Both the position numbers and the translations under genes were made by a program. Shown one piece after another: positions 1,613 through 63,760 of a DNA stretch of 64,000 bases. Under the pieces are notes generated by a model. It worked only from the letters and a program-made list of their open reading frames with translations, ran no database searches and was not told the origin of the DNA. Source of the stretch: Tridacna crocea. Taxonomy: Eukaryota > Mollusca > Bivalvia > Cardiida > Cardiidae. Location of the stretch: assembly GCA_943736015.1 (NCBI GenBank), contig OX031058.1, positions 16,951,001 to 17,015,000 of the forward strand, written 5' to 3'. The first letter of the stretch is position 1, and every line of letters begins with the position of its first letter.

Positions 1613-1840
1613 TTAACCCTTTACTACACAATTACAACTTTTAACGACCCCTAGAAAGAATCCTTTTGAATACACTGTGGGAACAGGAGAAAATGCTTTT
1701 AACCAGCATTTTCTCCTTTTCCCACAATGTGTTCTTCCCTGCTGGAAACAAATTTCAATTTTTCAGTTATGTTTAATTTGTCATCCCAAGTGCTTTCAAT
1801 TTGGACCAGTAAAGAACTATGTCATTTGGTAAAGAGTTAA
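1613..1840 (+). mobile_element. PB-A MITE (TTAA, piggyBac-type ends)
   Basis: Begins TTAACCCTTTACTACAC and ends TTTGGTAAAGAGTTAA. The central palindrome at about 1670-1735 has a mismatched centre (GCTTTTAACCAGC). Known: piggyBac-superfamily elements insert at TTAA and start with CCC; no transposase is encoded, so it is classed as a MITE by inference. It starts 16 bp after the Helentron-like terminus. Confidence 0.88.
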
Positions 1841-1841
1841 T

Positions 1842-2069
1842 TTAACCCTTTCCCAAACAAGCCCTGGTTTTTACGTGAATGCAGTACAAGTCTTTAGAAA
1901 ACACTTTGGGAAAAGGAGAAATTGCTCGTAACAAGCAATTTCTCCTTTTCCCACAGTGTTTTCTACCCTTTTTAAGAACTTTTTGCCATTTTGTCAAACT
2001 CTAAAATTGTCGTCTGCAAACTCTTTCGGTTTGGAAGAGTCCAAAATTTGTTGTTTGGGAAAGGGTTAA
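1842..2069 (+). mobile_element. PB-C MITE
   Basis: Ends are TTAACCCTTTCCCAAAC and GTTTGGGAAAGGGTTAA. The central hairpin has the centre GCTCGTAACAAGC and outer arms like PB-A. Left arm carries GTGAATGCAGTACAAGTC, shared with the copy at 61643. Only one base separates it from the preceding PB-A copy. Confidence 0.85.
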
Positions 2070-2277
2070 AATAGTTGGTAAATACAGCCCTTAGAAGCTG
2101 TAAAAGGGGAAAATGGATCAAAGGCAAATTAGGGGAAGTTCCAGGGCACATTTCAAAGCAACTTTACAACAAATCATACCATTATTCTTTCATAAAACCT
2201 ATAATTGTTGCCTTCTAAATCTGAAAGATAACTAAACTCCATTTGCCACTAAGATTCATTAAAAAATGTAAGCCATT

Positions 2278-2611
2278 AGCCCCAGTAGCTCAGTTGTTAG
2301 CATACAGGACTTGAGAACAGGGGGTCCCTTGTTCAATCCCTGGCTCAGCCAATCTCTTTCCTAGGACAGATGATGGTCATTGCTATAGATTCATTCCTCT
2401 CTAAACTGGTGATAAACTGCTGACAATTGTTTCGACAATACTTATAGGGGAAAGGAGCCAAGGGCTTGGAAAGAATATTGTGTACAGTACTGGTAAAAGA
2501 AACTCCAGAGAAGCATGGATAAGTCCATTGGCCAGTGAAATATAACTACAATGGATAAGTCCACTGGCCAGTGAAATATAACTACAATATGTTGAAAATG
2601 GCATTAAACAC
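2278..2611 (+). mobile_element. tRNA-derived SINE
   Basis: The head has an A-box-like TAGCTCAGTTGTTAG (2287-2301) and a B-box-like TTGTTCAATCC (2328-2338), about 30 bp apart as in a tRNA promoter. The body ends in a GTTGAAAATGGCATTAAAC tail that recurs in other SINE tails here. A 36-bp stretch is duplicated in tandem (2515-2550 and 2551-2586). I see no clear target duplication. It is not a working tRNA gene because no cloverleaf with paired acceptor ends forms. Confidence 0.7.
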
Positions 2612-2879
2612 TATAAGCTCAGAAAAATGCAATAAAATGGTACACATGATGATCAAAAGGCACTTTTTGGCCACTTTTTCACAATGCTTTCCTGGTGTTA
2701 GTATTGTTCTTTGTGTACATAGCCTTAATGATTCAAATTTGTTATTAATGAATTATACACCCTTGTTCTATAATTATTAATAAAGTTTTACTCATAAGTT
2801 TAATTGAAATCAGTTTGAGAACAGGAGAATTTTTTTGTCACTGCTTGCAATTTCTTCCTTTGACACTAACTGCCCTGCA
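2612..2879. other. Unclassified spacer
   Basis: AT-rich. I see no gene, hairpin or repeat, apart from a weak polyadenylation-like AATAAA-type context near 2780. Confidence 0.4.
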
Positions 2880-3250
2880 AAGTGGTCTCCAACAAGATGT
2901 GGTAAAACGAGAAAATGCTATTCAAATGCATTTTCTCTTTTTCCAAGTTATTTTCTACCCTATCAAAGACCGAAATCATCATTGGAAAACTTGAGATTGT
3001 CATCTGCAAATGCTTTGAATTTGAATAAGTCTAAAAATTTGTCATGCAGTAAAGAGTTAACAGTTATTAAATCTTATCCAGATAACAAAATTTTTATATG
3101 TCTAAATCTGAAGCATGTGCAAATAAAACTAGAAATTTTCTTTGAAAGATAAGAAAACATTGAAAGAAAAGGAGCAAAATACTGGTTACCATCAAATTCC
3201 TTATTTTTCAATACTATTTTTGAACTCAGGATTGTGTGGTGAAGGGCACT
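2880..3250. mobile_element. Two decayed PB-A copies (+ then -)
   Basis: 2880-3060 keeps GAGAAAATGC...GCATTTTCTC and a right end GCAGTAAAGAGTTAA. 3066-3250 keeps AACAAAATTTT and a right end GGATTGTGTGGTGAAGG in the opposite orientation. Both have lost palindrome pairing at many positions and read as old copies. Confidence 0.6.
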
Positions 3251-3383
3251 GTTTTCAAAAATGGTTTTGTTTTTCCCCCTTACAAAACCACTTTTATTCA
3301 AACACTCCATGATTTATTTGCTGTCTAGGGTCATGCAAACTGCAGGCTAATGACCATATGTTGACCATGGCACCATCTGCTAT

Positions 3384-3612
3384 TTAGCCCTTTACCACAA
3401 AATCCTGAATTTTAAGGACCACAGAAAAACAAGCATGAAAACATTGTGGGTGAAAAAGAATTTGCTGGAAACCACCATAATTATTCCCTTTTTCTCACCA
3501 TGTTTTCATTGACTCCAAAAAACAAATTTTAGTTTTGAGTGACTTCTTTTTTATTGTTTGCATTTCGAATTAATTTGGACAAATCAAAATTTTCTTGTCT
3601 GGTTAAGATTAA
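3384..3612 (+). mobile_element. PB-A MITE, diverged
   Basis: Left end TTAGCCCTTTACCAC, right end TCTGGTTAAGATTAA. Hairpin arms GAAAACATTGTGGG...CACCATGTTTTC survive but the centre is eroded. Confidence 0.75.
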
Positions 3613-3775
3613 CTGGTAGCTAAATATGGGCCAAAAATGTGACATACATAAAAATCTGGACCAAACAGCGCAGGACATGCATTCTGATGTTGGATCTACC
3701 ATGCACAAAATTCAGTAACAAAAATCTGGTCAAAACAACGCAAGTTGATCAGCAACATGGCTTCCTCTATACAAG

Positions 3776-3980: not shown

Positions 3981-4190
3981 TTAACTCCCTGCCACACAAA
4001 CAGCCCTGATGGAAAAGACTTTTCAAAACAATGTGGGAGAAAATAGGTTTAACCAGGAATTTTATCTCTTGTACAACATTTTCTATCAATTTCAAGACTA
4101 ATTTTACAATTTGGGTCACATTTGCCTTGTCGACCGCAAATGCTTTCAATTTGGACTAGTCTTGAATTTGTCATCTGTTGAAGAGTGAAA
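3981..4190 (+). mobile_element. PB-A MITE, diverged
   Basis: Starts TTAACTCCCTGCCACAC; the right arm keeps GCAAATGCTTTCAATTTGG but the final TTAA is lost (GAGTGAAAGG). The hairpin is imperfect. Confidence 0.7.
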
Positions 4191-5463: not shown

Positions 5464-5692
5464 TTAACCCTTTACCAAACAATCCCTGGTTTTTACGACC
5501 CTGAGATAGAAGCCTTTTGAAAACATTGTGGGGAAAGGAGAAAATGCTGGTAACCAGCATTTTCTCCTTTTCCAACAATATTTTCTACCCTGCTGGAAAC
5601 AGATTGCAATTTTTGAGTTATCTTTATTTTGTAGTCTACAGGTGCTTTCAATTTCGACCAGTCTAAAATTCCATTGTTTGGTAAAGGGTTAA
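5464..5692 (+). mobile_element. PB-A MITE, full length
   Basis: TTAACCCTTTACCAAACAAT to TTGTTTGGTAAAGGGTTAA gives an 18-bp terminal inverted repeat. Left arm CCCTGGTTTTTACGACC and CTGCTGGAAAC mark the CTTTACC subtype. Hairpin centre GCTGGTAACCAGC is intact. Confidence 0.92.
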
Positions 5693-5721: not shown

Positions 5722-5931
5722 TTAACCCTTTACCACACAATGATGACTTTTGACAACCGTGTGGAAGAAGCCTTTTGAAAACATTGTGGGAAAAGGAGAA
5801 AATGCTGGTAACCACAATGTTTTCTTTCCTTTATAGAACAAATTTCAATTCTTTAGTCACATTCATTTGGTCCTATGCAAATGCTTTCAATTTGGTTCAG
5901 TCCAGAATTTTGTCGTTTGGTAAAAGGTTAA
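5722..5931 (+). mobile_element. PB-A MITE, hairpin half-deleted
   Basis: TTAACCCTTTACCACACAAT to GTCGTTTGGTAAAAGGTTAA. GCTGGTAACC is followed directly by ACAATGTTTTC, so ~19 bp of the right hairpin arm is missing. Left arm has the variant GATGACTTTTGACAACC. Confidence 0.85.
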
Positions 5932-8004: not shown

Positions 8005-8202
8005 TTAAATCTTTACCAAACAAGTCTTGGTTTTTACAACCCTGGGATAGAAGCCTTTTGGTAACCAGCATTTTCTCCTTTTCCCACAATGTTTTCTACC
8101 CAGCTGGAAACACATGTCAGTTTTTGACTTACGTTAATATTCTGTCTGCAAATGCTTTCAATTTTGACCTGTCTAAAATTTCGCTGTTTGATAAAAAGTT
8201 AA
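8005..8202 (+). mobile_element. PB-A MITE, left hairpin arm deleted
   Basis: TTAAATCTTTACCAAAC to CTGTTTGATAAAAAGTTAA. GAAGCCTTTTG jumps straight to GTAACCAGCATTTTC, removing the left half of the palindrome. Confidence 0.85.
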
Positions 8203-8467: not shown

Positions 8468-8697
8468 TTAACTCATTACCAAACCACCAAATTTTAGGCT
8501 TGTCCAAATCGAAAGCATTTGCAGGCGACATAATAAAATTGATTTAAAATTTGAAAATTGTTTTGTAAGGGATAGAAAACACTGTGGGAAAAGGAGAAAA
8601 TGCTGGTTACCAGCATTTTCTTCTTTTCCCACAGTGTTTTTTAAAGGTTTCTTTCTCGGGGGGCATCAAAAGTAGGGATTGTGTGGTAATGGGTTAA
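8468..8697 (-). mobile_element. PB-A MITE, full length, CATTACC subtype
   Basis: TTAACTCATTACCAAAC to GTGTGGTAATGGGTTAA. Both ends carry the CATTACC/GGTAATG variant. Intact hairpin with centre GCTGGTTACCAGC. Confidence 0.92.
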
Positions 8698-8802: not shown

Positions 8803-9026
8803 TTAACTCTTTACCATACAACAGAATTTTATTCTTGTCTAAATTTGAAAGCATTTTACAAATGACAAAAAATATAAGTGACTCAAAACTTGAAATTCGC
8901 TTTAAGAGGGATAGAAAACAATGTGGGAAAAGGAGAAAATGCTGCTTTCTCCTTTTCCCACAATGTTTTCAAAAGCCTTCTCTTTTTGGGGATGTTAAAA
9001 GTCAGGATTGTGTGGCAAAGAGCTAA
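8803..9026 (-). mobile_element. PB-A MITE, centre of hairpin lost
   Basis: TTAACTCTTTACCATAC to GTGTGGCAAAGAGCTAA. The hairpin reads GAGAAAATGCTGCTTTCTCC, so the right GGTTACCAGCATT portion is gone. Confidence 0.87.
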
Positions 9027-9191: not shown

Positions 9192-9418
9192 TTAACCCTT
9201 CAACACACAATCCCGACTTTTAACGACCCTGTGAAAGAAGCCTTTTAAAAACATTGAGGGAAAAGGAGAAAATGCTGGTAACCAGCATTTTCTCCTTTTC
9301 CCACAAAGTTTTCTTCCCTTCCTAAAACAAATTTCAATTCTATAGTCACATTTAATTTCTGGTCTGAAAAGGCTTTCATTTTGAACTAGTCTAAAATTTT
9401 GTTGTTTGGTAGAGTTAA
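9192..9418 (+). mobile_element. PB-A MITE, full length
   Basis: TTAACCCTTCAACACAC to TTGTTTGGTAGAGTTAA; hairpin centre GCTGGTAACCAGC intact; right arm CTTCCTAAAACAAATTTC. Confidence 0.9.
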
Positions 9419-9489: not shown

Positions 9490-9680
9490 TTTTTTACTCT
9501 ACCAGAATACAAAATTTTGGACTTCTACCTGAAAGCATTTGCAGAGGACACATAAAAATGTGCTGCAAAACTTTAAAATTGTTATCACAATGGGAGAACA
9601 CATCGTGGAAAGAGACAAAGGGCTGGTTCCCTGCATGTTTTCCTTTGCTCACAGTGTTTTCAAAGCCTTTTACTACAAGG
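9490..9680 (-). mobile_element. PB-A remnant
   Basis: Recognised from AAAATTTTGGACTTCTACC, GAAAGCATTTGCAGAGGACA and CACAGTGTTTTCAAAGCC; ends lost. Confidence 0.5.
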
Positions 9681-9755
9681 TTACTAACACATACAATTAT
9701 TTGGAAAAAGTTTAAATAACAGTTGTTCCATTCTACATATTACTCACCCGACCTG

Positions 9756-10753: not shown

Positions 10754-10982
10754 CTAAATCTTTACCAAACAACAAAATTTTAGACTGTTCCAAATTGAAA
10801 GCACTTGCAGACAACAAAATAAACGTTACTCAATAATTGAAATTTGTTTCCAGCAGGGTAGAAAACATTGTGGGAAAAGGAGAAAATGCTGGTTACCAGC
10901 ATTTTCTCCTTTCCCCACAATGTTTTCAGAAGGCCTTTATCCCAGGGTCGTAAAAACCAGGGATTGTTTGGGAAAGGGTTAA
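10754..10982 (-). mobile_element. PB-A MITE, full length
   Basis: Left TSD mutated to CTAA; TCTTTACCAAACAACAAA to TTGTTTGGGAAAGGGTTAA. GTAAAAACCAGGG marks the CTTTACC subtype. Intact GCTGGTTACCAGC hairpin. Confidence 0.9.
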
Positions 10983-15151: not shown

Positions 15152-15377
15152 TTAACCCTTTACCACACAGTCCCAACTTTTGACGACCCTGAGATAGAAG
15201 CCTTTTGAAATAATTGTGGGAAAAGAAGAAAATGCTGGTAACCAGCATCTTCTCCTTTTCTCACAATGTTTTCTACCCTGCTGGAAACAAATGTCAATTT
15301 TTGAGTTACATTTATTTTGTCGTCTGCAAGTGCCTTCATATTGGACCAGTCTAAAATTTTGTCCTTTAGTAAAGTAA
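15152..15377 (+). mobile_element. PB-A MITE, full length
   Basis: TTAACCCTTTACCACAC to CCTTTAGTAAAGTAA (right TSD mutated). CTGCTGGAAAC right arm; hairpin centre GCTGGTAACCAGC. Confidence 0.9.
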
Positions 15378-16167: not shown

Positions 16168-16380
16168 TTAACTCTTTACCACACAAGAAAATTTTACACT
16201 GGTCCAAACTGAAAGCATTTTCAGACAACAAAATGAAGGTGACGAAAAAATAGAAATTTGTTCGGGAAGGGTAGAAAACACTGGGGGGAAAGGAGAAAAT
16301 GCTGGTTACCAGCATTTTCTCCTTTTTCCACAGTGTTTTTCAGAGGCTTCTATCTCCGGGATTGTTTGGTAAAGGGTTAA
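16168..16380 (-). mobile_element. PB-A MITE, right arm shortened
   Basis: TTAACTCTTTACCACAC to TTGTTTGGTAAAGGGTTAA. After the intact hairpin the right arm lacks the GGGTCGTTAAAAG segment (CTCCGGGATTG). Confidence 0.9.
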
Positions 16381-16831: not shown

Positions 16832-17046
16832 TCAACCCTTTACCACACAACAAAATTTCAGACCTATTGAAAGTATTTCCAGATAACAGTTTCAGTGTGG
16901 CTCATATCAAATGATTTTAGGGTAGAAAACATTGTAGGAAAAGGAGAAAATGCTGGTAACCAGCATTTTCTCCTTTTCCCACAATATTTTCAAAAGCTTT
17001 CTCTTTCAGGGGTGTTAAAAGTCGTCATTGTGTTGTAAAGGGTTAA
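16832..17046 (-). mobile_element. PB-A MITE, GTCGTCATTGTG subtype
   Basis: Left TSD TCAA; CCCTTTACCACACAAC to TTGTAAAGGGTTAA. Intact hairpin but its centre is GCTGGTAACCAGC, inverted relative to most minus copies. Shares GTTAAAAGTCGTCATTGTG with the copy at 50518. Confidence 0.88.
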
Positions 17047-21242: not shown

Positions 21243-21499
21243 TTAACCCTTTACCAAACAAGATCATAATTTAACCCATTACCACACAATCCCTGCTTCT
21301 GACGACCCTGAGAAAGAAGCCTTTAGAAAACATTGTGGGAAAAGGAGAAAATGCTGGTAACCAACATTTTCTCCTTTTCCCACAATGTTTTCAACCCTTT
21401 ACAAAACAAATTTCAAATTTTCAGTCACATTTATTTTGTCATCTGTAATAGCTCTCAATTTGGACCAGTCTAATATTTTGTCGTTTGGTAAAGAGTTAA
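21243..21499 (+). mobile_element. PB-A MITE (21271-21499) preceded by a 27-bp PB-A end fragment
   Basis: TTAACCCTTTACCAAACAAG at 21243 is a bare left end. A second left end, TTAACCCATTACCACAC, starts at 21271 and the element runs to GTCGTTTGGTAAAGAGTTAA. Hairpin nearly intact (GGTAACCAACATT). Confidence 0.88.
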
Positions 21500-21729
21500 C
21501 TCTTTACCACACAATCCCGACTTTTAACGACCCTGAGAAAGAAGCCTTGTGAAAACATTGTGAGAAAAGGAGAAAATGCTGGTAACCAGCATTTTCTCCT
21601 TTTCCCACAATGTTTTTTTTTCTTCCCTTTCCAAAAGCAATTTCAAATATTCAGTCACTTTGATTTTGTCGTCTGCAAATGCTTTCAATTTGGACCAGTC
21701 TAAAATTTTGTCGTTTGGGAAAGGGTTAA
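21496..21729 (+). mobile_element. PB-A MITE, sharing TTAA with previous copy
   Basis: Starts at the TTAA that ends the previous copy. GTCGTTTGGGAAAGGGTTAA right end. A T-run (CAATGTTTTTTTTTCTTCCC) expands the right hairpin shoulder. Confidence 0.92.
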
Positions 21730-21751: not shown

Positions 21752-21949
21752 TCAACCCTGTACCACACAATCCTGAGTTTTAATGACCCTGAAGAAGACC
21801 CTAGTAACCAGCATTTTCTCTGGTCCCACAATGTTTTCTTTTCAGTCAAATGCAGAAATCACTCACTCTATAAACAACATTTAATTTCATGTCTGCAAAT
21901 ACTTTCAGTTTGTTCAAGTTCAAAATTTTAATGTATGGTAAAGAATTAA
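21752..21949 (+). mobile_element. PB-A MITE, left hairpin arm deleted
   Basis: Left TSD TCAA; CCCTGTACCACACAATCC to ATGTATGGTAAAGAATTAA. GAAGAAGACCCTAGTAACC shows loss of the left arm. Confidence 0.8.
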
Positions 21950-23491: not shown

Positions 23492-23720
23492 TTAACCCAT
23501 TACCTCACGAGAAAAATTTGGACAGGTTCAAATTGAAAGCATTTGTAGACGACAGAATAAAGGTAACTGAAAAATTGAAATTTGTTCTGGGAAGGGTAGA
23601 AAACCCTGTGGGAAAAGGAGAAAATGCTGGTTACCAGCATTTTCTCCTTTTCCCACAGTGTTTTCAAAAGGCCTCTTTCTCGGGGGCGTCAAAAGTAGGG
23701 ATTGTGTGGTAATGGGTTAA
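23492..23720 (-). mobile_element. PB-A MITE, full length, CATTACC subtype
   Basis: TTAACCCATTACCTCAC to GTGTGGTAATGGGTTAA; both ends carry the CATTACC/GGTAATG variant; GGGGGCGTCAAAAGTAGGG; perfect GCTGGTTACCAGC hairpin. Confidence 0.93.
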
Positions 23721-24180: not shown

Positions 24181-24412
24181 TTAACTCTTTACAAAACAAC
24201 AAAATTATAGACTGGTCCAAATTGAAAGCATTTGCACACCACAAAATAGAGGTGACTGAAAAATTGAAACTTGTTTTGAGAAAGATAGAAAACATTGTGG
24301 GAAAAGAAGAAAATGCTGGTTACCAGCATTTTCTCCTTTTTCCACAATGTTTACAAAAGGCTTCTTCTTTCTCGGGGTTGTTAAAAGTTGGGATTGTGCG
24401 GTAAAGAGTTAA
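24181..24412 (-). mobile_element. PB-A MITE, full length
   Basis: TTAACTCTTTACAAAAC to GTGCGGTAAAGAGTTAA; hairpin centre GCTGGTTACCAGC; right arm CTTCTTTCTCGGGG. Confidence 0.92.
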
Positions 24413-24443: not shown

Positions 24444-24672
24444 TTAACCCATTACTACACAATCCCTACCTTTGACGCCCCTGAAAAAGAGGCCTTTAGA
24501 AATCATCGTGGGAAAAGGAGAAAATGCTGGTAACCAGCATTTTCTCCTTTTCCCACAATGTTTTCTAACCTTCACAGAACAAATTTAAAATTTTCAGTCA
24601 CATTTTTTTTGTCGCCTGCAAAGTCTTTCAATTTGGACCAGTCTAAAATATTGTTGTTTGGTAATGGGTTAT
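24444..24672 (+). mobile_element. PB-A MITE, CATTACC subtype
   Basis: TTAACCCATTACTACAC to TTGTTTGGTAATGGGTTAT; TTTGACGCCCCTGA arm; perfect GCTGGTAACCAGC hairpin. Confidence 0.92.
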
Positions 24673-25064: not shown

Positions 25065-25296
25065 TTAACCCATTACTACACAATCCCTACTTTTGACAAC
25101 CCTGAGAGAGAAACCTTTAGAAAACATTGTAGGAAGAGGAGAAAATGCTGGAAACCAGCATTTTCTCCTTTTCCCACAGTGTTTTCTATCCTTCACAAAA
25201 CAAATACAAATTTTTAGTCACCTTTATTTTAATGTCTGCAAATGCTTTCGAATTGGATGAACGTAAGTAAAATTTTGTCGTTTGGTAATGAGTTAG
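25065..25296 (+). mobile_element. PB-A MITE, CATTACC subtype
   Basis: TTAACCCATTACTACAC to GTCGTTTGGTAATGAGTTAG; hairpin centre GCTGGAAACCAGC (one central change); right arm has a small ACGTAAGT insertion. Confidence 0.9.
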
Positions 25297-25644: not shown

Positions 25645-25873
25645 TTAACCCATTACCACACAATCCCTACTTTTGACGCCCCCGAGAAAGAAGCCTTTTG
25701 AAAATACTGCGGGAAAAGGAGAAAATGCTGGTAACCAGCATTTTCTCCTTTTCCCACTGTGTTTTCTACCCTTCCCAGAACAAATTTTAGTTTTTCAGTC
25801 ACCTTTATTTTGTCGTCTGCAATTGCTTTCAATTTGGACCAGTCTAAAATTTTCTCGTGTGGTAAAGAGTTAA
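25645..25873 (+). mobile_element. PB-A MITE, full length
   Basis: TTAACCCATTACCACAC to CTCGTGTGGTAAAGAGTTAA: the left end is the CATTACC variant, the right end the GGTAAAG variant. Perfect hairpin. Confidence 0.93.
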
Positions 25874-27440: not shown

Positions 27441-27765
27441 TCAGCCTATTACCAAACCATCCCTTGGTTTAAAGACCCCAAAAAATGGCTTTTGGAATCA
27501 TTTTTCTGAAAAATAATGCTTGGTAACAGTGATTTCTCTTTTAACCCTTTACCAAACCCTGGTTTTTACGACCTTGAGAAAGAAGCCTTTTGAAAACATT
27601 GTAGGAGAAGGAGAAAATGCTGGTAAACAGCATTTTCTCCTTTTCCCACAATGTTTTCTACCCTGCTGGAAACGATTTTTAATTTTTTAGTTATGTTCAT
27701 TTTGTTGTCTGCAATTGCTTTCAATTTGGACCAGTCTAAAGTTTTGTCATTTGGGAAAGGGTTAA
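27441..27765 (+). mobile_element. PB-A fragment (27441-27540) joined to full PB-A MITE (27541-27765)
   Basis: The fragment keeps ATTACCAAACCATCCCTTGG and half a hairpin. The full copy runs TTAACCCTTTACCAAAC to GTCATTTGGGAAAGGGTTAA, with a 4-base deletion in CAAACCCTGG, a CTGCTGGAAAC arm and centre GCTGGTAAACAGC. Confidence 0.87.
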
Positions 27766-37194: not shown

Positions 37195-37423
37195 TTAACC
37201 TTTTACCAGATGACAAAATTTTAGCCTTGTCCAAATTGAAAGCATTTGCAGACGATATATTCACTCTGGCTCAAATGGTTAAATTGTACTTTGATAGGGT
37301 AGAAAACATTGTGAGAAAAGAAGAATATGCTGGTTACCAGTATTTTCTTCTTTTCCAACAATGTTTTAAACTGGCTTCTTTCCCAGGGTCATTAAAAGTT
37401 GGTATTGTGTGGTAATTGGTTAA
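37195..37423 (-). mobile_element. PB-A MITE, full length
   Basis: TTAACCTTTTACCAGATGAC to GTGTGGTAATTGGTTAA; hairpin with small changes (ATATGCTGGTTACCAGTATT, still pairing). Confidence 0.9.
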
Positions 37424-38083: not shown

Positions 38084-38294
38084 TTAACCCTTTTCCACAC
38101 AATCCTGAGTTTTAATGAGCCTTTTCAAAACATTGTGAGAAAATGCTGGAAACCAGTAAGTTCTCCTTTTCCCACAATGTTTCACAGACTATGTTATCCA
38201 AATTGCATCAATTGTGCTATATAATTGTTGTCTTCTGCAAATGCTTTCAAAGTGAACCTGTCTAATATAATGTTTTTGAATAGAAAAGAGTTAA
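38084..38294 (+). mobile_element. PB-A MITE, diverged
   Basis: TTAACCCTTTTCCACAC to TGAATAGAAAAGAGTTAA; hairpin left arm shortened (GTGAGAAAATGCTGG). Confidence 0.8.
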
Positions 38295-38372: not shown

Positions 38373-38601
38373 TTAACCCATTACCACACAATCCCTACTT
38401 TTGATGACCCTGAGAAAGAAGCCTTTAGAAAAAATTGTAGGAAAAGGAGAAAATGCTGGTTACCAGCATTTTCTCCTTTTCCCACAACGTTTTCTACCCT
38501 TCACAAAACAAATTTCAAATTTTCAGTCACTTTCATTTTGTCGTCTGCACATGCTTTCAATTTGAACCAGTCTAAAATTTTGTTGTGTGGTAAAGAGTTA
38601 A
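38373..38601 (+). mobile_element. PB-A MITE, CATTACC left end
   Basis: TTAACCCATTACCACAC to TTGTGTGGTAAAGAGTTAA. Hairpin centre GCTGGTTACCAGC is flipped relative to other plus-oriented copies. Confidence 0.92.
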
Positions 38602-39271: not shown

Positions 39272-39499
39272 TTAACTCATTACCAAACAACAATATTTTA
39301 GGCTTGTCCAAAATGAAAGCATTTGCAGACAATAAAATATAAGTGACTGAAAATTTGAAATTTGTGTTGTAAAGATTAGAAAACATTGTGGGAAAAGGAG
39401 AAAATGCTGGTTACCAGCATTTTCTCCTTTTCCCACAATGTTTTCTAAAGGCTTTTTCAGCGGTGTCAAAAGTAGGGGTTGTGTGGTAATGGGTTTTAA
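39272..39499 (-). mobile_element. PB-A MITE, full length, CATTACC subtype
   Basis: TTAACTCATTACCAAAC to GTGTGGTAATGGGTTTTAA; perfect hairpin; CGGTGTCAAAAGTAGGG. Confidence 0.92.
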
Positions 39500-39970: not shown

Positions 39971-39973
39971 ATA

Positions 39974-40172
39974 TAACTCTTTAACAAACGACAAAATTTT
40001 GGACTTGGCCAAATTCAAAGCATCTGCAGACGACAAGTTAAATCTTGGTAACATGATGATTATGTGGGAAAAGCAGAAAATATTGTGTGAATTTTCTCCT
40101 TCTCCAAAAGTGTTTTCTATAAGCTTCTTTCTCAGGGTCATAAAAAGTTGGGATTGTGTGGTAAAGAGTCAA
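39974..40172 (-). mobile_element. PB-A MITE, decayed hairpin
   Basis: ACTCTTTAACAAACGACAAA to GTGTGGTAAAGAGTCAA; hairpin reduced to AAAATATTGTGTGAATTTTC. Confidence 0.8.
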
Positions 40173-43134: not shown

Positions 43135-43364
43135 TTAATTCTTTACCCCATAGGGCATTTCTATGGTATATCTGATTGATCCTAAATAACAGTAGGGATG
43201 AAGCCGTTTTCATGGGTATATGACAATCTTTTTGATAGCATAGAAAACACTGTGACAAAAGGTGAAATTGCTTGTCACGAGCAATTTCACCTTTTGCCAC
43301 AATATTTTCCAAAGGCTCCTACAAGCAATGTGTAGAAATGAGTATCTATGGAGTAAAGGGTTAA
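43135..43364 (-). mobile_element. PB-B MITE
   Basis: TTAATTCTTTACCCCATAGG to TATGGAGTAAAGGGTTAA; hairpin centre GCTTGTCACGAGC; arm CCTAAATAACAGTAGGG. Same orientation as 31289-31516. Confidence 0.9.
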
Positions 43365-43580
43365 TTCTTTGTCGAAAGATAAAATTTTGGATATATCCAA
43401 ATTAAAGCATTTGCAGACAACAAAAGTAGCTAAAATGAAGAAAGCAGTCCTTATTGGATAGAAAATATTGGCGGAAAAGTAGAAAAATGCTGATTACCAG
43501 CACTTTTTCCTTTTCTAACAATGTTCAAAAGCTTCTTCTTCAGGGTTGTTAAAACTTGTAACCATTTGGTCAGAGGTTAA
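43361..43580 (-). mobile_element. PB-A MITE sharing TTAA with PB-B
   Basis: TTAATTCTTTGTCGAAAGAT to TTTGGTCAGAGGTTAA; hairpin AAATGCTGATTACCAGCACT imperfect. Confidence 0.82.
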
Positions 43581-43963: not shown

Positions 43964-44192
43964 TTAACTCATTACCAAACGACAATATTTTAGGGTTCTC
44001 CAAATTGAAAGCATTTGCAGATGACAAAATAAAAGAGACTGAAAATTTGAAATTTGTTTTGTGAAGGGTAGAAAACTTTGTGGGAAAAGGAGAAAATGCT
44101 GGTTACCAGCATTTTCTCCTTTTCCCACAATGATTTTTGAGGGCTTCTTTCTCATAGTCGTCAAAAGTAAGGATTGTGTGGTATTGGGTAAA
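43964..44192 (-). mobile_element. PB-A MITE, CATTACC subtype
   Basis: TTAACTCATTACCAAACGAC to GTGTGGTATTGGGTAA; perfect inner hairpin GCTGGTTACCAGC. Confidence 0.92.
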
Positions 44193-44393
44193 CTCTTTTA
44201 CCACTTGGAAAAAATTTAGACCCATCCAAATTTCAAGCTTTTAGTCAACAATTCAACTTTGGCAAAAACAATGAGATTTTCCTTTCTGTGTGGGAAAAGA
44301 AAAACATGCTGGCATTTCTCTTTTTTCCACAATATTTCAAAAGTCTTCGTCCTTGGGGTTGTTCAAAGTTGACATTGTGTTGTAAAGGGTTTA
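44189..44393 (-). mobile_element. PB-A MITE, hairpin shortened
   Basis: Abuts the previous copy at GTAA; right end GTGTTGTAAAGGGTTTA; AAACATGCTGGCATTTCTC lacks the centre. Confidence 0.8.
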
Positions 44394-44614
44394 CCCATTA
44401 CCATACAATCCCTACTTTTGACGAACTTGAGAAAGAAACTTTTACAAGACATTGTGGGAAAAGGAGAAAATGCTGGTAACAAGCATTTTCTCCTTTTCCC
44501 ACAATGTTTTCTACCCTTCACAGAAAAAATTTCAAATTTTCAGTACATTTTGTCCTCTGCAAATGCTTTCGATTTGGACAAACCTAAAAATTTTGTCATT
44601 TGGTAATGAGTTAA
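44390..44614 (+). mobile_element. PB-A MITE, CATTACC subtype, third in chain
   Basis: TTTACCCATTACCATAC to GTCATTTGGTAATGAGTTAA; both ends CATTACC/GGTAATG; hairpin centre GCTGGTAACAAGC. Confidence 0.9.
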
Positions 44615-49277: not shown

Positions 49278-49499
49278 TTAACCTTTTACAAAGTTACAAA
49301 ATGTTAGACTGGTCAATCAGAAAGTGTGAAGAGACAACAATATTAATATGGCACAAATGATGGGGTTTGTATCAAATAGTCTAGAAAACATTGTGGGAAA
49401 AGGAGAAAATGCTGCTTACCAGCATTTTCTCCTTTTCCCACAATGATTTCAAAAGGCATCTTTCTAGGGATGATTAAAATCCAGGTGGTAAAGGGATAG
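49278..49499 (-). mobile_element. PB-A MITE
   Basis: TTAACCTTTTACAAAGTTAC to GGTGGTAAAGGGATAG; hairpin centre GCTGCTTACCAGC; ~10 bp missing near the right end. Confidence 0.87.
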
Positions 49500-49981: not shown

Positions 49982-50210
49982 TTAACCCTTTACCAAACAA
50001 TCCCTGGTTTTTACGACCCTGAGATAGAAGCCTTTTGAAAACATTGTGGGGAAAGGAAAAAATGCTGGTAACCAGCATTTTCTCCTTTTCCAACAATGTT
50101 TTCTACCCTGCTGAAAACAAATTGCAATTTTTGAGTTATGTTTATTTTGTAGTCTGCAGGTGCTTTCAATTTGGACCAGTCTAAAATTCCGTTGTTTGGT
50201 AAAGGGTTAA
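49982..50210 (+). mobile_element. PB-A MITE, full length
   Basis: TTAACCCTTTACCAAAC to CGTTGTTTGGTAAAGGGTTAA. Near-identical in arm words (GATAGAAGCC, TTTGTAGTCTGCAGGTGC) to the copy at 5464, about 44 kb away. Confidence 0.93.
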
Positions 50211-50435
50211 CTCGTTACCACACAATCCCTACTTTTAACGACCCTGAGAAAGAAAGCCTTTGAAAACATTGTGGGAAAAGGAGAAAATGCTGGTAACCAG
50301 CATTTTCTCCTTTTCCCACAATGTTTTCTACCCTTCCCAAATCAAATTTTGATCTTTCAGTGACTTTTATTTTGTCGCCTGCAAATGCTTTCAATTTGGA
50401 CCACTCTAAAAATTTGTTCTGTGGTAAAGTGTTAA
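50207..50435 (+). mobile_element. PB-A MITE sharing TTAA, different subtype
   Basis: TTAACTCGTTACCACAC to TCTGTGGTAAAGTGTTAA; perfect hairpin; CCCTACTTTTAACGACC arm. Confidence 0.93.
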
Positions 50436-50517: not shown

Positions 50518-50746
50518 TTAACCTTTTACCACACAACAAAACTTTAGACCTGTCGGAAATGAAAGCATTTGCAGATACAGTTTTATGTGGCTCATGTGAA
50601 ATGATGTTTCTTTGATAGGGTAGAAAACATTGTTGGAAAAGGAGATAATGCTGGTAACCAGCATTTTCTTCTTTTTCCCACAATGTTTTCAAAAGTCCTT
50701 TCTTTCAGGGTTGTTAAAAAGTCGTCATTGTGCGGTAAAGGGTTAA
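50518..50746 (-). mobile_element. PB-A MITE, GTCGTCATTGTG subtype
   Basis: TTAACCTTTTACCACAC to GTGCGGTAAAGGGTTAA; hairpin centre GCTGGTAACCAGC. Arm TTATGTGGCTCATGTGAAAT relates it to 16832-17046. Confidence 0.9.
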
Positions 50747-51031: not shown

Positions 51032-51260
51032 TTAACCCATTACCACACAATTCCTACTTTTGACGACCCTGAGAAAGAGGCCTTTTGAAAACACTGTAGG
51101 AAAAGGAGAAAATGCTGGTAACCAGCATTTTCTCCTTTTCCCACAGTGTTTTCTACCCTTCCCAGAACAAATTTCAAATTTTCAGTCACTTTTATTTTGT
51201 CCTCTGCAAACGCTTTCAATTTGAACCAGTCTAAAATTTTGTCGTGTGGTAAAGAGTTAA
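51032..51260 (+). mobile_element. PB-A MITE, full length
   Basis: TTAACCCATTACCACAC to GTCGTGTGGTAAAGAGTTAA; perfect hairpin. Confidence 0.93.
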
Positions 51261-51540: not shown

Positions 51541-51770
51541 ATAACCCTTTACTCCATAGATACTTAATTTCTACGCATTGCTTGTAGGAGCCTTTGGAAA
51601 ACATTGTGGCAAAAGGTGAAATTGCTCATGACGAGCAATTTCACCTTTTGTCACAATGTTTTCTTTGCTATCAAAAGGTGTCATATACACATAAGAAATT
51701 GTTTCATCTTTGCTGTTATTAAGAGTCAATTAGAGATACCATACAAATGCCTTATGGGGTAAAGGGTTAA
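51541..51770 (+). mobile_element. PB-B MITE
   Basis: Left TSD ATAA; CCCTTTACTCCATAGATAC to CTTATGGGGTAAAGGGTTAA; hairpin centre GCTCATGACGAGC. Opposite orientation to 31289 and 43135. Confidence 0.9.
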
Positions 51771-52077: not shown

Positions 52078-52285
52078 TGAACTCTTTACCAAACTGGACT
52101 ACACCAAACTGAAAGCAATTGCAAACAACAATTTTTAATGCACTTTTTGATTTCCGTCTTTGATAGGGTAAAAATCATCAAGGGAAAGGGAGAAAATACT
52201 GGTTACCAGCATTTTCTCATTTTCCAACAATGTTTTCTCTTTTCTCAGGATCATTAAAACTTGGGATTGTGTTGAAAAGGGTTAA
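52078..52285 (-). mobile_element. PB-A MITE next to the exon
   Basis: Left TSD TGAA; CTCTTTACCAAACTGG to GTGTTGAAAAGGGTTAA; hairpin AATACTGGTTACCAGCATT; lies 85 bp beyond the exon's donor, inside the predicted intron. Confidence 0.82.
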
Positions 52286-53147: not shown

Positions 53148-53236
53148 CTGAAAAAAATTACAAATGCAAGATAATACAGGTGACACACAACTTTCAACTT
53201 GGTCTTCAACTATTTATATCTCTGCAGGAGAATTTT

Positions 53237-53758: not shown

Positions 53759-53980
53759 ATAACTCATTACCAAACACAATATTTTAGGCTTGTCCAAAAC
53801 GAAAGCATTTGCAGATGACAAAGTAAAAGTGACTGAAAATTTGTTCTGCGAAGGGTAGAAAATATTGTGGGAAAAGGAGAAAATGCTGATTACCAGCATT
53901 TTCTCCTTTTCCCACAATGTTTTCTACAGGATTCTTTCTCAGGGGGCGTCAAAAATAGGGATTGTGTGGTAATGGGATAA
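53759..53980 (-). mobile_element. PB-A MITE flanked by matching ATAA
   Basis: ATAACTCATTACCAAAC to GTGTGGTAATGGGATAA; both quartets are ATAA rather than TTAA. CATTACC subtype; hairpin centre GCTGATTACCAGC. Confidence 0.9.
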
Positions 53981-55085: not shown

Positions 55086-55312
55086 TTAACCCATTACCAA
55101 ATGACAAAATTTTAGATCTGTCAAAATTGAAAGGAATACCAGACGACAAAATAAAAGTGACTGAAAATTTAAAATTTGTTTATGAAGGGTAGAAAACATT
55201 GTGGGAGAAGGAGAAAATGCTGGTTACCAGCATTTTCTCCTTTTCCCACAAGTTTTCTTAAGGCTTCTTTCTCAGGGTCGTTAAAACTAGGGATTGTGTG
55301 GTAATGGGTTAA
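55086..55312 (-). mobile_element. PB-A MITE, full length, CATTACC subtype
   Basis: TTAACCCATTACCAAATGAC to GTGTGGTAATGGGTTAA; near-perfect hairpin. Confidence 0.92.
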
Positions 55313-55627: not shown

Positions 55628-55853
55628 TTAAAACTCTACCACACAATCCCAAGTATTAACGACCCCAAGGAAGATGCCTTTTGAAAACATTGTTGGAGAA
55701 GGAGAAAATGCTGGTAACCAGCATTTTCTCCTTTTCCAACAATGTTTTCTATCTTTTCAGAAACAAACTATTTAATGCATGTTTAATTTGTCGTCTGCAA
55801 ATGCTTTGAATTTGGATGGGTCTTAAAAATTTCCTTGTGTGGTTACCAGTTAA
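55628..55853 (+). mobile_element. PB-A MITE
   Basis: TTAAAACTCTACCACAC to TTGTGTGGTTACCAGTTAA; perfect hairpin with compensated ACATTGTTGGAGAAGG-type arm. Confidence 0.88.
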
Positions 55854-56171: not shown

Positions 56172-56406
56172 TTAACTCTTTACCACACAAGAAAATTTTA
56201 GACTGGTCCAAATTGAAAGCATTTGCAGAAGACAAAACAAAGTTGACTCAAAAATAGAAATTTGTTCTGGGAAGGGTAGAAAACACTGTGGGAAAAGGAG
56301 AAAATGCTGGTTACCAGCATTTTCTCCTTTTCCCACAGTGTTTTCAAAAGATTTCTTTCTCGGGGGGGGGGGGGTCAAAAGTAGGGATTGTGTGGTAATG
56401 GGTTAA
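56172..56406 (-). mobile_element. PB-A MITE with G13 expansion
   Basis: TTAACTCTTTACCACAC to GTGTGGTAATGGGTTAA; perfect hairpin. The usual CTCGGGG... tract has grown to 13 G (56362-56374). Confidence 0.92.
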
Positions 56407-56796: not shown

Positions 56797-57025
56797 TTAA
56801 CTCTTTACAAAACAACAAAATTTAAGACTGATCCAAATTGGAAGCATTTGCAGACAACAATTCACATGTGGCTGATTTGATAGAATTTGTAAATGACAGT
56901 CCAGAAATCATTTTTGGAAAAGGAGAAAATGCTGGTCACCAGCATTTTCTCCTTTTCTCACAATGTTTTCAAAAGCCTTGTTTTTCAGGGTGGTTAATAC
57001 TTGGAATTGTTTGGAAAAGAATTAA
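56797..57025 (-). mobile_element. PB-A MITE, full length
   Basis: TTAACTCTTTACAAAACAAC to TTGTTTGGAAAAGAATTAA; hairpin centre GCTGGTCACCAGC. Confidence 0.9.
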
Positions 57026-57418: not shown

Positions 57419-57624
57419 TTAACTTATTACCAGACAACAACGTTTTAGATCTGTCCAAATTGCAATCTTTTAAAGGCAGAAAAATGAATCATAGCCAAGG
57501 TGACTTTATCTTTTGAAGAACAGAAAAATTTGTGAACCAAATGCTGAGTAACCTTTATTTTTTCTTTCAAACCCCTTCTTATCATAAGATCATTTCAAGT
57601 TCAGAATGTATTATAAAGGGTTAA
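57419..57624 (-). mobile_element. PB-A MITE, decayed
   Basis: TTAACTTATTACCAGACAAC to ATTATAAAGGGTTAA; hairpin reduced to AATGCTGAGTAACC; right TTAA shared with PB-B. Confidence 0.75.
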
Positions 57625-57849
57625 CCCTTTACTCCATAGATACTCATTTCTACGCATTGCTCGTTGGAGCCTTTGGAAAACATTGTGGCAAAAGATGAAA
57701 TTGCTCGTGACGAGCAATTTCACCTTTTGCCACAATATTTTCTACACTATCAAAAGGTGTCATATACACATAAGAAACGGTTTCATCCTTGCTGTTATTT
57801 AGGGTCAATTAGGGATACCACAGAAATGCCTTATGGGGTAAAGGGTTAA
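57621..57849 (+). mobile_element. PB-B MITE, full length
   Basis: TTAACCCTTTACTCCATAG to TATGGGGTAAAGGGTTAA; hairpin centre GCTCGTGACGAGC; arm ATCCTTGCTGTTATTTAGGG. Very close to 51541-51770. Confidence 0.93.
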
Positions 57850-58248: not shown

Positions 58249-58477
58249 TTAACCCCTTACCAGACAATTCCTAGTTTTTACGACCCTGAGAAAGAAGCCT
58301 TTTGAAAACATTGTGGGAAAAGGAGAAAATGCTGGTAACCAGCATTTTCTCCTTTTCCCAAAATGTTTTCTACCCTGCTGGAAACAATCTTCAATTTTTG
58401 AGTTACATTTATTTTGTCGTTTGCAAGTGCTTTCAATTTGGACCAGTTTAAAATCTTATCGTTTGGGAAAGGAATAA
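58249..58477 (+). mobile_element. PB-A MITE, full length
   Basis: TTAACCCCTTACCAGACAAT to ATCGTTTGGGAAAGGAATAA; CTGCTGGAAAC arm; near-perfect hairpin. Confidence 0.92.
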
Positions 58478-59723: not shown

Positions 59724-59953
59724 TTCACCACTTTCCCAAACAAACACGGGTTATCACATGTGTGCTATCAAATTCTTTTGTCAAAACATGTTGGATAAGG
59801 AGAAATTGCTCGTTATAAGCAATTTCTTCTTTATTAAATACTTTTTCCCCACTACTAGCGAATTTTCCACCATTTTTGCAGCTTTTTAAATTGTCATCTG
59901 CCAACTCTTTGAATGTGGAAGAGTCTGATATTTGTCGTTTGGAAAAGAGCTAA
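59724..59953 (+). mobile_element. PB-C MITE, diverged, nested in the Helentron-like element
   Basis: ACTTTCCCAAACAAACACGG to GTCGTTTGGAAAAGAGCTAA; hairpin GAGAAATTGCTCGTTATAAG...CAATTTCTTC. A separate PB-A end fragment (AAATTGAAAGCAT) lies at 59610-59660. Confidence 0.7.
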
Positions 59954-61377: not shown

Positions 61378-61572
61378 TTAATTTACTGAGTGACAAAATT
61401 TTAGAAAATTTTGTCTAAATAAAAAGCATTTGCATACAACAAATCAAGGCGGCTCTAATGACAAAATATACCACTGTTAGAGTAGAAAACATTGTTGGAT
61501 AAGAAGAGATTTTGCTGTTTACTTGCATTTTTCTTCGTTTTTGTAAGTTACGACTGTGTGGTACAGGGTTAA
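61378..61572 (-). mobile_element. PB-A MITE, decayed
   Basis: TTAATTTACTGAGTGAC to GTGTGGTACAGGGTTAA; hairpin broken (TTTGCTGTTTACTTGC). Confidence 0.78.
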
Positions 61573-61642: not shown

Positions 61643-61870
61643 TTAACTCTTTCCCAGACAAGCCCTGGTTTTTACATATCTGCAGTACAAGTCTTCAGAA
61701 AACACAGAGGGAAAAGGAGAAATTGCTCGTAATGAGCAATTTCTCCTTTTCCCACAGTGTTTTCTAGCCTATCGGAAAACATTCTGCCATTCTCACCAAA
61801 TTCAAAATTGTCATCTGCAAACACGTTGAGTTTGAGAAAGTCTAAAATTTGTTATTTGGGAAAGGGCTAA
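61643..61870 (+). mobile_element. PB-C MITE, full length
   Basis: TTAACTCTTTCCCAGAC to TTATTTGGGAAAGGGCTAA; hairpin centre GCTCGTAATGAGC; CTGCAGTACAAGTC as in 1842-2069. Confidence 0.9.
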
Positions 61871-62809
61871 AGCAAGCTTCATAATTTCCTTGGTAATCAG
61901 TGAACCTGTGATACTTTTAGTTGGCCAGAGATGAGTTATTGGCGTTCCATGCCCAAGCTCTCCACAAACATAGCCTTCTGTATTTTGCAGAAGCTTGATT
62001 TATGATGATAAGGGGAAAATCTATAATCATGATGAAGATTGAAAAAGATTGATAAAGATCAATACATAAAGAAGATGATAGTTTGTTTTGGGTCTGTGAT
62101 TTACATAAAATACCCATTCAAACCCCATTAGGCTTACCCAGCATGAAATCTGGATTACCATGCAGCTTTCTTAACAAATAATAAAGCTTCTGATCACAGT
62201 TTTAATTATCATTTCCACCATTCAATTTTTTTTTCAACTAATGATTTTTCTAAAACCCTTCTCTCTGATGACATTTCAGACCTTATTTAGTGTTGCTTTT
62301 GTTTCTAAAGGTTTTTTGTTCTTACTGTATAAACTGTGATAATAAGGACCACTCCAATGTCATTATTAATCAAACAGTAAGAAATTTCTCTACGATCACA
62401 TACTTTTAACAACTATTCCAAAATTATCTAGCAAATGTAAAATTAAAAGATAATGACTCCCACAATTCTTCAATTTTTAGCTGACCAAACTTAAGTTTTT
62501 TTTTTTGTTTAAATTGGATGCTAAAGCCATTTTAACACCCTAGGTCACATCACATCAGTCACTACACCTATGCATGACTGTGTTTCCTGGTTTTTTCACA
62601 GAAGTAGTGGTCAACTTTCCTATTAAGTCACTGACTACTTTTCTAAAATGCAAAAGAGATGAGAGGTGAAAAATCGGTGGTAAAAAAAATTGCCTCATTC
62701 GGGTTTCAAACTGTAACCAGTAGGTTACAAGCCAAATGTACTAGTCACTAGGCTGCAAGTAACACTGACCAAAATTCAAATGCTGTAGATCCTTCAAATT
62801 TCAAAATAA
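61871..62809. other. Unclassified, no gene seen
   Basis: 62700-62760 (GGGTTTCAAACTGTAACC) could be a minus-strand B-box of a decayed SINE, but no A-box is clear. Confidence 0.3.
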
Positions 62810-62950
62810 AAAGAGACTGCAAGTAAGACATTCATGTCTAAAATGGTAAGATCTGTCTTTGTAAGGATAGAAAACATTGTAGAAGGAAGAGAAAACAGCT
62901 TAGTTACAAACACTTTCTCCTTTTTCCACAAAAGCCTTTAGGTCGTTAAG
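62810..62950 (-). mobile_element. PB-A remnant
   Basis: GATAGAAAACATTGTAGAAG...CTTTCTCCTTTTTCCAC and TAGGTCGTTAAGTGC. Confidence 0.5.
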
Positions 62951-62975
62951 TGCAACTCGTTGACCTTTTGCAGGC

Positions 62976-63033
62976 AATGTAGATCAAGATCAGATTGCAC
63001 AAACTGTGCTGGTTGATCTTAAATATACAAAGT
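62976..63033. repeat. Palindrome, GATCAGACTGCACA family
   Basis: GATCAAGATCAGATTGCACA faces TGTGCTGGTTGATCTTAAAT. Confidence 0.65.
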
Positions 63034-63102
63034 CTAGTAAGAGAATAGTTTTTCTCCTAAAATCGAAGTTGAAATAGCAACATTTTGATCTTTATCATCA
63101 GC

Positions 63103-63330
63103 TTAACTCTTTCCAAACGACAAAATTTTAGACTAGTCCAAATTGAAAGCACCTGCAGACGACAAAATGAATGTAATTCAAAAATTGAAATTTGTTTCCA
63201 GCAGGGTAGAAAACATTGTGGGAAAAGGAGAAATTGCTGGTTACCAGCATTTTCTACTTTTCCCACAATGTTTTCAAAAGGCTTCTATATCAGGGCCATA
63301 AATACCAGAGATTGTTTGGGAAAGGGTGAA
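63103..63330 (-). mobile_element. PB-A MITE, CTTTACC-type arms
   Basis: TTAACTCTTTCCAAACGAC to TTGTTTGGGAAAGGGTGAA; CAGCAGGGTAG arm; hairpin GAAATTGCTGGTTACCAGC. Confidence 0.9.
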
Positions 63331-63338
63331 AAGTTTCA

Positions 63339-63535
63339 TTGACCTTTTTACCAAATGGCAAAATTTTAGACCGGTCCAAATTGAAACCATTTGCATACGA
63401 GAAAATAAACATAACACAGTAATTGAAATTTGTTTTCAGCAGGGTAGAAAACATTGTGGGAAAAGAAAAAAATGCTGTTTACCAGCATTTTCACCTTTAC
63501 CAATAATGTTTTCATAGGGCTTCCATGTCAGGGTC
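63339..63535 (-). mobile_element. PB-A MITE, right end missing
   Basis: TTGACCTTTTTACCAAATGG to ATGTCAGGGTCAA, where it runs into the next copy; the GTTTGGTAAAGGG end is absent. Confidence 0.85.
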
Positions 63536-63760
63536 AACTCTTTACCAAACGCCAAATATTTAAGACTGGCCAACATTGAAACCACTTGCAGATGACAAAA
63601 TAAACGAAACCAAAAAATTGGAACTTGTTTCAAGCAGGGTAGAAAACGTTGTGGGAAAAGGAAAAAAATGCTGGTTACCAGCATTTTCATCTTTACCCAT
63701 GTTTTCAAAAGGCTTTTATGTCAGGGTCGTAAAAACCAAGGATTGTTTGGTAAAGGGTAA
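63534..63760 (-). mobile_element. PB-A MITE, head-to-tail with previous
   Basis: Left TSD TCAA; CTCTTTACCAAACGCC to TTGTTTGGTAAAGGGTAA; hairpin centre GCTGGTTACCAGC. Confidence 0.88.

Follow-up and report, generated by a model that had tools for sequence, protein, structure and literature searches.

Results and Discussion

The MITE family in the window

The 64-kb stretch of Tridacna crocea DNA analysed here (the window, C3:16951001-17015000 of a genome of 1,048,827,098 bases in 31 contigs) is densely filled with one family of miniature inverted-repeat transposable elements (MITEs), which carry a 67-bp palindrome in their centre. Using an iterated profile search we identified 129 non-redundant copies, 66 on the plus and 63 on the minus strand, and confirmed the dense, TTAA-bounded hairpin family in both orientations that a first-pass annotation of the letters had described. 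Its estimate of about 100 copies and roughly a quarter of the window was real but low, as all copies together cover 22,351 bp or 34.9%. The span of 1613..63760 and the length of about 228 bp given there agree with our data, since the first copy starts at 1613, the last one ends at about 63761 and intact copies measure 228–229 bp. Near-full-length copies (69 of the 129) span 178–241 bp, and the range from near-perfect to badly decayed copies is reflected in a divergence from the consensus of 7% to 43%. The end sequence TTAACCCTTTACCA matched 118 times with at most 2 mismatches, compared to 0.95 matches expected from shuffles, and the profile gave no match in the reversed window. The family is short, uniform in size, bounded by terminal inverted repeats (TIRs), without coding capacity and present in high copy number, as is typical for MITEs. 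Beyond the hairpin and the density noted before, what is new here is that the central palindrome shows compensated changes between lineages of the family.

Near-full-length MITE copies (position, strand, lineage and remarks; paired numbers are palindrome columns)
1613..1839, +, lineage A
1842..2068, +, lineage C, pairs 63/115 C-G and 81/97 T-A
3069..3246, -, lineage A, old
3384..3608, +, lineage A, old
3981..4186, +, lineage A, old
5464..5692, +, lineage A, exact TTAACCCTTTACCA at both ends
5722..5930, +, lineage A
8005..8201, +, lineage A
8468..8697, -, lineage A, nested in another copy, gap-free join
8804..9025, -, lineage A
9192..9414, +, lineage A
9500..9715, -, lineage A, old
10755..10982, -, lineage A
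15152..15374, +, lineage A
16169..16380, -, lineage A, 63/115 C-G
16834..17046, -, lineage A, nested, 3-nt gap at join
21271..21498, +, lineage A, TTAA shared with next copy
21496..21728, +, lineage A, 7% from consensus
21754..21948, +, lineage A
23493..23720, -, lineage A, 63/115 C-G
24182..24412, -, lineage A
24444..24671, +, lineage A
25065..25295, +, lineage A
25645..25872, +, lineage A, 63/115 C-G
27541..27764, +, lineage A
28011..28238, +, lineage A, TTAA shared with next copy
28236..28434, +, lineage A
28807..29047, -, lineage A
29214..29441, +, lineage A
29860..30086, +, lineage A, old
30100..30325, -, lineage A
30530..30741, +, lineage A
31064..31291, +, lineage A, TTAA shared with next copy
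31290..31516, -, lineage B, four compensated palindrome pairs
35699..35927, +, lineage A
35927..36151, -, lineage A, TTAA shared with next copy
36148..36375, +, lineage A, old
36406..36632, -, lineage A
37196..37423, -, lineage A, nested, 1-nt gap beside join
38084..38293, +, lineage A
38373..38600, +, lineage A, nested, gaps near join
39273..39495, -, lineage A
39974..40171, -, lineage A, nested, gap-free join; site copies now ATAA and TCAA
42829..43049, +, lineage A, old
43136..43364, -, lineage B, TTAA shared with next copy
43363..43580, -, lineage A, old
43965..44189, -, lineage A
44197..44391, -, lineage A, old
44393..44613, +, lineage A
49279..49497, -, lineage A
49982..50209, +, lineage A, TTAA shared with next copy
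50207..50434, +, lineage A
50260..50330, +, one copy's central palindrome with both 33-bp arms perfect, minimum free energy -38.1 kcal/mol (single-stranded DNA), z -16.5
50519..50746, -, lineage A
51032..51259, +, lineage A, inserted at palindrome centre of another copy, gap-free join
51542..51769, +, lineage B
52080..52285, -, lineage A, old
53760..53980, -, lineage A
55087..55312, -, lineage A
55629..55852, +, lineage A, beside piece of another copy, alignment ends at join
56173..56406, -, lineage A, 63/115 C-G
56798..57025, -, lineage A
57420..57624, -, lineage A, old, TTAA shared with next copy
57621..57848, +, lineage B
58249..58472, +, lineage A
59729..59952, +, lineage C, old
61383..61572, -, lineage A, old
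61643..61869, +, lineage C
63105..63329, -, lineage A
63536..63758, -, lineage A, beside piece of another copy, 3-nt gap, alignment ends at join

From left to right a copy consists of a TIR, a left spacer of 37 columns, the central palindrome, a right spacer of 88 columns and the second TIR. The palindrome occupies consensus columns 56–122 and is built from two 33-bp arms and a single centre base; 53 of the 55 palindromic centres in the window lie inside MITE copies, and one shuffled control gave none. The end repeat comprises 17 bp including the TTAA, with 2 mismatches. CCCTTT and CCCATT variants of the termini are present, the consensus starting with CC at its left end and with CT (read inward) at its right end, so that the termini overall are 5'-CC (or CT) and GG (or AG)-3'. 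A Pfam scan of 27 of the 241 open reading frames (ORFs) of the window (at least 45 aa, outside of copies and tandem arrays) revealed no transposase domain, and a match of one ORF to Herpesvirus glycoprotein M (E 0.015) was far under the cut-off and was taken as chance. The Rfam scan at gathering score and the tRNA scan of the window gave no hits, no match to the palindrome was found in viral contigs and prokaryote genomes, and searching the TIR sequence and a bivalve-like repeat motif in the open-licence literature led to no relevant match.

Lineages and conservation of the palindrome

A tree of 67 of the 69 near-full copies, reconstructed without the palindrome columns, separates three lineages A, B and C, in agreement with the several bursts suggested before. 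For the comparison of lineages, copies from elsewhere in the genome were included, which brought the near-full set to 167 distinct copies (153 of A and 7 each of B and C), and all pair counts leave aside the 60 partial copies of the window. Exact 31-bp palindrome cores of lineages B and C occur 15,594 and 10,018 times in the genome, respectively. Between the lineage consensuses the palindrome is 91% (A-C), 85% (A-B) and 88% (B-C) identical, compared to 86%, 78% and 75% for the TIRs and 63%, 42% and 38% for the spacers. As the three lineages differ in most of their spacer sequence and agree in the palindrome, they come close to a natural deletion experiment. In 35 young copies of lineage A, changes shared by several copies are rarer in the palindrome (0.024) than in the spacers (0.10–0.11) and TIRs (0.06–0.09), whereas changes found in a single copy of the window, though not necessarily single in the genome, are nearly even (palindrome 0.018, spacers 0.025, TIRs 0.016–0.018; p 0.056 for palindrome versus spacers).

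The spacers are apparently free in their sequence and not much in their length. Those of A and B show no net indel, while resident copies gain 0.035–0.05 indels per substitution, from which about 5–7 indels would be expected between A and B (hand arithmetic). As the A and B spacers match best at zero offset (0.40, compared to a mean of 0.28 and a highest value of 0.35 for 30 other offsets), they seem to be anciently related and not exchanged. A motif CCTTT(A/T)CC common to TIR and palindrome arm in lineages A (p 0.008) and C (p 0.015), not in B (p 0.59), is a hint only. A divergent palindrome related to that of the MITE, CCATTGCT...AGCAATGG, is located at positions 3576-3650 of a stretch fetched around another piggyBac locus (L027); it may represent a fourth lineage, with additional pairs that are compensated.

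Compensated changes in the palindrome arms

Comparing A with C, all six arm changes fall into three complete pairs (63/115 T-A to C-G, 81/97 A-T to T-A and 86/92 G-C to C-G), and comparing A with B, eight of nine form four complete pairs (69/109, 76/102, 81/97 and 86/92), the ninth being the unpaired column 110. Both comparisons together place 14 of 15 arm differences in complete compensated pairs, five of which are distinct; B and C share the pairs 81/97 and 86/92, each of which may have arisen only once. The chance of obtaining four complementary pairs from eight random arm positions is about 9e-8. Because four of the five pairs are double transversions, no G-U intermediate lies between their states. 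The B and C consensuses behind these counts come from seven copies each; that of C is fully paired (from the three copies of the window it is unpaired at 86/92 and 87/91) and that of B adds the single unpaired change at column 110.

Within the window, the 44 of 69 near-full copies without palindrome indels contain 34 cells changed on both sides of a pair compared to 7.2 in shuffles (a value that none of 500 reached). In controls with the pairing shifted by 1–3 columns there were 3–11 such cells. As this count is inflated by the relatedness of the copies, the comparison of lineages is the firmer argument. Resident copies look different: at pair 81/97, the sole pair counted genome-wide, 1,012 + 996 = 2,008 places carry a change in one arm only and 49 are compensated, which means that 97.6% of the changed places are one-sided. 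Since the lineages are paired in 14 of 15 differences and resident copies mostly not, the palindrome is maintained in the transposing lineages, and the simplest reading is that elements keeping their arms matched are those that go on transposing. We found no report of a MITE with a compensated palindrome in the open-licence literature.

The pair 63/115 switches between T-A and C-G at least four times on the tree, the most among the eight pairs counted. Either a mutational hot spot at this pair or recombination among the lineages could account for this.

TTAA targeting and superfamily

Exact TTAA is present at both ends in 35 of the 69 near-full copies, at the 5' end in 52 and at the 3' end in 45. 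Among 12 neighbouring pairs of copies at most 12 bp apart, nine overlap by exactly 4 bases, with TTAA as overlap in seven cases and CTAA and TTTA in one case each. From 18 candidates for nested insertions, the host copy aligns well across the join in six. Three of these are free of gaps at the join with a single 4-bp site kept (8468-8697, 39973-40172 and 51032-51260), 37195-37423 has a 1-nt gap beside the join, and 16832-17046 and 38373-38601 have gaps at or near it. For 55628-55853 and 63534-63761, which lie beside pieces of other copies, the alignment ends at the join. One nested insertion hit the palindrome centre of its host and another one the TTAA of consensus columns 29–32. This pattern fits TTAA targeting with a 4-bp duplication and bears out the TTAA boundaries reported earlier.

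CCCTT and CCCAT are among the best-kept terminal motifs of piggyBac elements (PMC10813416), and CCCTTT-type piggyBac TIRs have also been described in corals (PMC2872659). With a TTAA duplication, TIRs starting with CC(C/T)T or CCCAT and a transposase-coding element with related ends (see below), the family shows several features of this superfamily, and the earlier assignment to piggyBac from TTAA and CCC...GGG ends is supported by termini, target and candidate helper alike. The TTAA target duplication would also suit Kolobok, another TTAA-targeting superfamily, and the Kolobok and T2-MITE elements of Xenopus resemble our family in their target and in forming a very long-lived MITE family (PMC6004289). 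However, Kolobok termini are 5'-RR and YY-3' (PMC9587614, PMC6004289), with a terminal AGGRR or RR motif instead of CCC in the Xenopus elements (PMC6004289), whereas the MITE ends in CC (or CT)...GG (or AG). As piggyBac elements with related ends are present in the genome as well, we regard a Kolobok origin as extremely unlikely.

Candidate helper elements

The piggyBac DDE domain (PF13843) has 118 matches in the genome, the best of them in open frames of about 490–670 residues. We fetched 20 of the 118 loci with about 4 kb on each side and could classify the ends in 16 (not in L012, L013, L024 and L028). Twelve loci carry TTAA-CCC ends of eight other kinds (L009, L010, L011, L014-L016, L017, L018/L021/L022, L025 and L027). 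MITE-type ends outside of any long MITE copy were found at both ends of L019 and, within the fetched stretch, at one end each of L020, L023 and L026. MITE-type end pairs around the transposases of L010, L014, L016 and L018 were rejected as they belong to MITE copies, and three palindrome-like stretches inside L010, considered as shared modules, look like decayed MITE insertions.

The L019 element (C7:18507265-18513640, 6,376 bp) has a transposase frame of 508 aa, and its two ends are identical over 18 of 18 bp including TTAA (TTAACTCTTTCCCACACA). Its left end matches columns 1–38 of the lineage A consensus (MITE-A) at 34 positions. For MITE-A columns 5–60 the score is 49 with this end (equalled by 0 of 1000 shuffles) and 25 with that of L026 (1 of 1000). 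With 11 ends of eight other piggyBac loci, 153–935 of 1000 shuffles reached the observed score. L020, L023 and L026 form a sister family of L019 with transposases about 80% identical and with the ends TTAACTCATTACCACTCA (L020 and L023) and TTAACCCATTACCGTTCA (L026). L020 and L023 are 97.8% identical across 6.76 kb and their common repeat terminates exactly at the MITE-type end. As five DDE matches with 492-aa frames, L020 among them, have nearly equal scores, several young copies are suggested.

Both candidate helper families share with the MITE the TTAA plus CTCTTTCCCACACA, CTCATTACCACTCA or CCCATTACCGTTCA ends and a 23-bp motif at column 16. In contrast to the MITE they are 6.4 kb (L019) or at least 7.1 kb (sister family) long and contain a transposase gene, and instead of the one copy of the motif retained in the MITE at column 16 there are four at the L019 left end (columns 16, 51, 86 and 121) and three at the L026 end (16, 51 and 86). 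From these similarities the MITE is most likely moved in trans by an L019/L020-type piggyBac transposase. The first-pass annotation had placed the helper outside of the window and proposed to search the genome for a piggyBac transposase gene flanked by the MITE ends; such elements do exist elsewhere in the genome, with ends that are related and not exactly TTAACCCTTTACCA. Finding a candidate helper family strengthens the classification as piggyBac, and this candidate, with its open frames and its ends related to those of the MITE, is a resident of the same genome.

The motif repeats (L019:866-1030 and the L026 end at 9456) are subterminal with an exact period of 35 bp, and the arms of the MITE palindrome, each 33 bp long and with 34 bp between their centres, are in a similar register, possibly by chance. 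L014, L015 and L016 represent another piggyBac element, which is young, measures about 2,765 bp and carries the TIR CCCTTTATATAC (L014 and L016 are 99.6% identical); it has equal-scoring DDE matches on further contigs and was probably active recently.

Copy number in the genome

Counting the family throughout the genome, also a step proposed before, was done via an exact 27-bp palindrome core and samples. The core occurs 223,657 times in the genome (the reversed pattern 0 times) and 26 times in the window, and applying the ratio of copies to cores in the window yields about 1.1 million copies, including about 0.59 million near-full ones. A small sample of ten 4-kb stretches, taken at round coordinates on eight contigs, contained 47 copies, 22 of them near full, with a mean coverage of 19.7% (single stretches 0–38%), to which the 34.9% of the window compares as high. 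Extrapolation from these samples gives about 1.2 million copies, in agreement with the core-based estimate. By extrapolation the family comprises about 1.1–1.2 million copies and about a fifth of the 1.05-Gb genome. One non-coding family with about a million copies and about a fifth of the genome seems extreme for a MITE, and we found no report of a million-copy MITE family in the open-licence literature.

The nearest printed case found there is CMITE from Acropora corals (PMC2872659), which shares with our family the piggyBac/TTAA type, CCCTTT-type TIRs, tandem copies and an internal region better conserved between families than the TIRs, and its authors suspected a role of this region in transposition. 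CMITE elements are about 100 bp long with an estimated 1,600 or so copies in A. millepora, and their 75-bp internal region is not described as a palindrome in the passages cited here, whereas in our family the conserved part is a compensated 67-bp palindrome and the copy number is several hundred times higher.

Possible role of the palindrome

Folded as single-stranded DNA, the palindrome arms of six copies reach a minimum free energy of -30 to -38 kcal/mol, with none of 200 shuffles of each being as good. Arms pairing this strongly (with DNA parameters) might also function as RNA, transcribed copies folding into double-stranded RNA or a microRNA-like precursor to the benefit of the element or of its host, and MITE-derived microRNAs are known (PMC1784062). 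An RNA hairpin would be expected to tolerate G-U more than A-C, and one-sided changes show no such preference on this strand (150 G-U versus 189 A-C in lineage A and 60 versus 86 in the window). On the minus strand the ratio is reversed, so that an RNA of that strand is conceivable. The Rfam result also speaks against an RNA role, which overall we consider very unlikely.

The transposase dimers of piggyBac and piggyBat use two cysteine-rich domains to contact a palindrome inside the element (PMC11707139), which is about 12–19 bp long and subterminal; a central 67-bp palindrome as in the MITE is not described in the cited parts of that work. In our near-terminal palindrome test of 18 ends (L018 and L022 being one family), six of nine other piggyBac elements possess a palindrome of 14–18 bp at 20–46 bp from one end, equalled by at most 8 of 300 shuffles. 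The MITE palindrome was not found as a native component of the autonomous elements L019 and L023. Apart from MITE-like insertions, the alignment of these two covers the transposase gene, the right end and two shorter segments, the profile detected no palindrome at matching places of the aligned parts, and the palindrome-bearing stretches inside both elements look like MITE insertions.

We infer that the palindrome acts in cis in mobilisation. According to the model that we propose, a non-autonomous piggyBac MITE of about 229 bp that inserts at TTAA would be moved in trans by an L019/L020-type transposase. Lineage A has retained the outer end of the candidate helper family and one of the 35-bp-spaced subterminal repeats, presumably a transposase-binding sequence. 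The central palindrome would be cis-acting, either by offering the transposase a symmetric docking site or by extruding as a DNA hairpin; a function as hairpin or cruciform is equally possible. Copies with matched arms would have kept multiplying, which would explain that the lineages show compensated changes, while resident copies decay mostly without compensation. We regard this explanation as a whole as probable, with moderate confidence.

Several points weigh against it. The L019 ends show no near-terminal palindrome in columns 12–60 (best 2 and 4 pairs, without shuffles), which weakens the analogy to docking, as one cannot transfer it directly to the probable helper. At their right ends L019 and the MITE share only the outer 17–18 bp. 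For lineage B the match to the left end of L019 extends over 10 bp only, so that B may use another helper. The length constraint on the spacers comes from 0 versus about 5–7 indels in a comparison that leaves out copies of other lengths. Since two of the five compensated pairs are common to B and C, the changes between lineages cannot all be counted as independent events. The eleven-fold excess of compensated places at pair 81/97 (49 compared to about 4.5 under independence, hand arithmetic) suggests that one arm may at times be copied from the other or that copies of lineage C may be mixed in, and without pair 63/115 lineage A contains 26 compensated doubles compared to 15.5 in shuffles, a number reached by only 5 of 500.

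Both excesses, as well as the repeated switching of 63/115 between standard pairs, would fit if one arm templated the other during replication or repair and complementarity was kept without any function. But such copying keeps the arms alike and not their sequence, while the A and B palindromes are 85% and the spacers 42% identical. Furthermore, uncompensated doubles in lineage A (153 copies, again without 63/115) are enriched as much as compensated ones (35 versus 17.3 in shuffles), and changed places at 81/97 are nearly all one-sided. Arm-to-arm copying as the explanation appears unlikely to us. The palindrome might also be a passive remnant of the MITE origin, with compensated states shared by gene conversion or recombination among lineages, to which the patchwork of pair states would correspond (63/115 in C and parts of A, 81/97 and 86/92 in B and C). 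This leaves unexplained why the palindrome is far better kept than the spacers and why 14 of 15 arm changes are joint ones, and we find it quite improbable.

Returning to a palindrome acting in cis, the compensated palindrome is a concrete and testable candidate for the internal sequence that lets a MITE multiply to such numbers. Tentatively, the palindrome itself could be an amplification signal, as symmetric site or extruded hairpin, leading to a much more frequent pick-up by the transposase than in ordinary MITEs, perhaps coupled to replication, and could be the reason for the about one million copies. If true, a DNA structure under compensatory selection in a MITE would be a new kind of cis element of cut-and-paste transposons.

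Other features of the window

Close to the lineage B copy 51542-51769 a perfect two-copy tandem duplication of 87 bp is located at 51342-51516. Long tandem arrays are present at 218-1488 (unit 161 bp), 20542-21151 (203 bp), 31921-33026 (156 bp), 33184-34371 (about 145 bp) and 40877-41766 (about 159 bp). A second small palindromic element, unrelated to the TTAA family, is found at 9761-9946 and 35376-35545 in two copies about 75% alike, with arms containing ...GATTGGC(C/T)AAAC...GTTTAGCCAATC... The minus-strand ORF at 52347-53213 (288 aa), for which no relative was found in the PDB, weakly resembles the tri-helical domain of KIF26A/B, with a score below threshold (E 2e-4, 21.9 bits compared to a cut-off of 27), and is possibly an exon or part of a KIF26-like animal gene.

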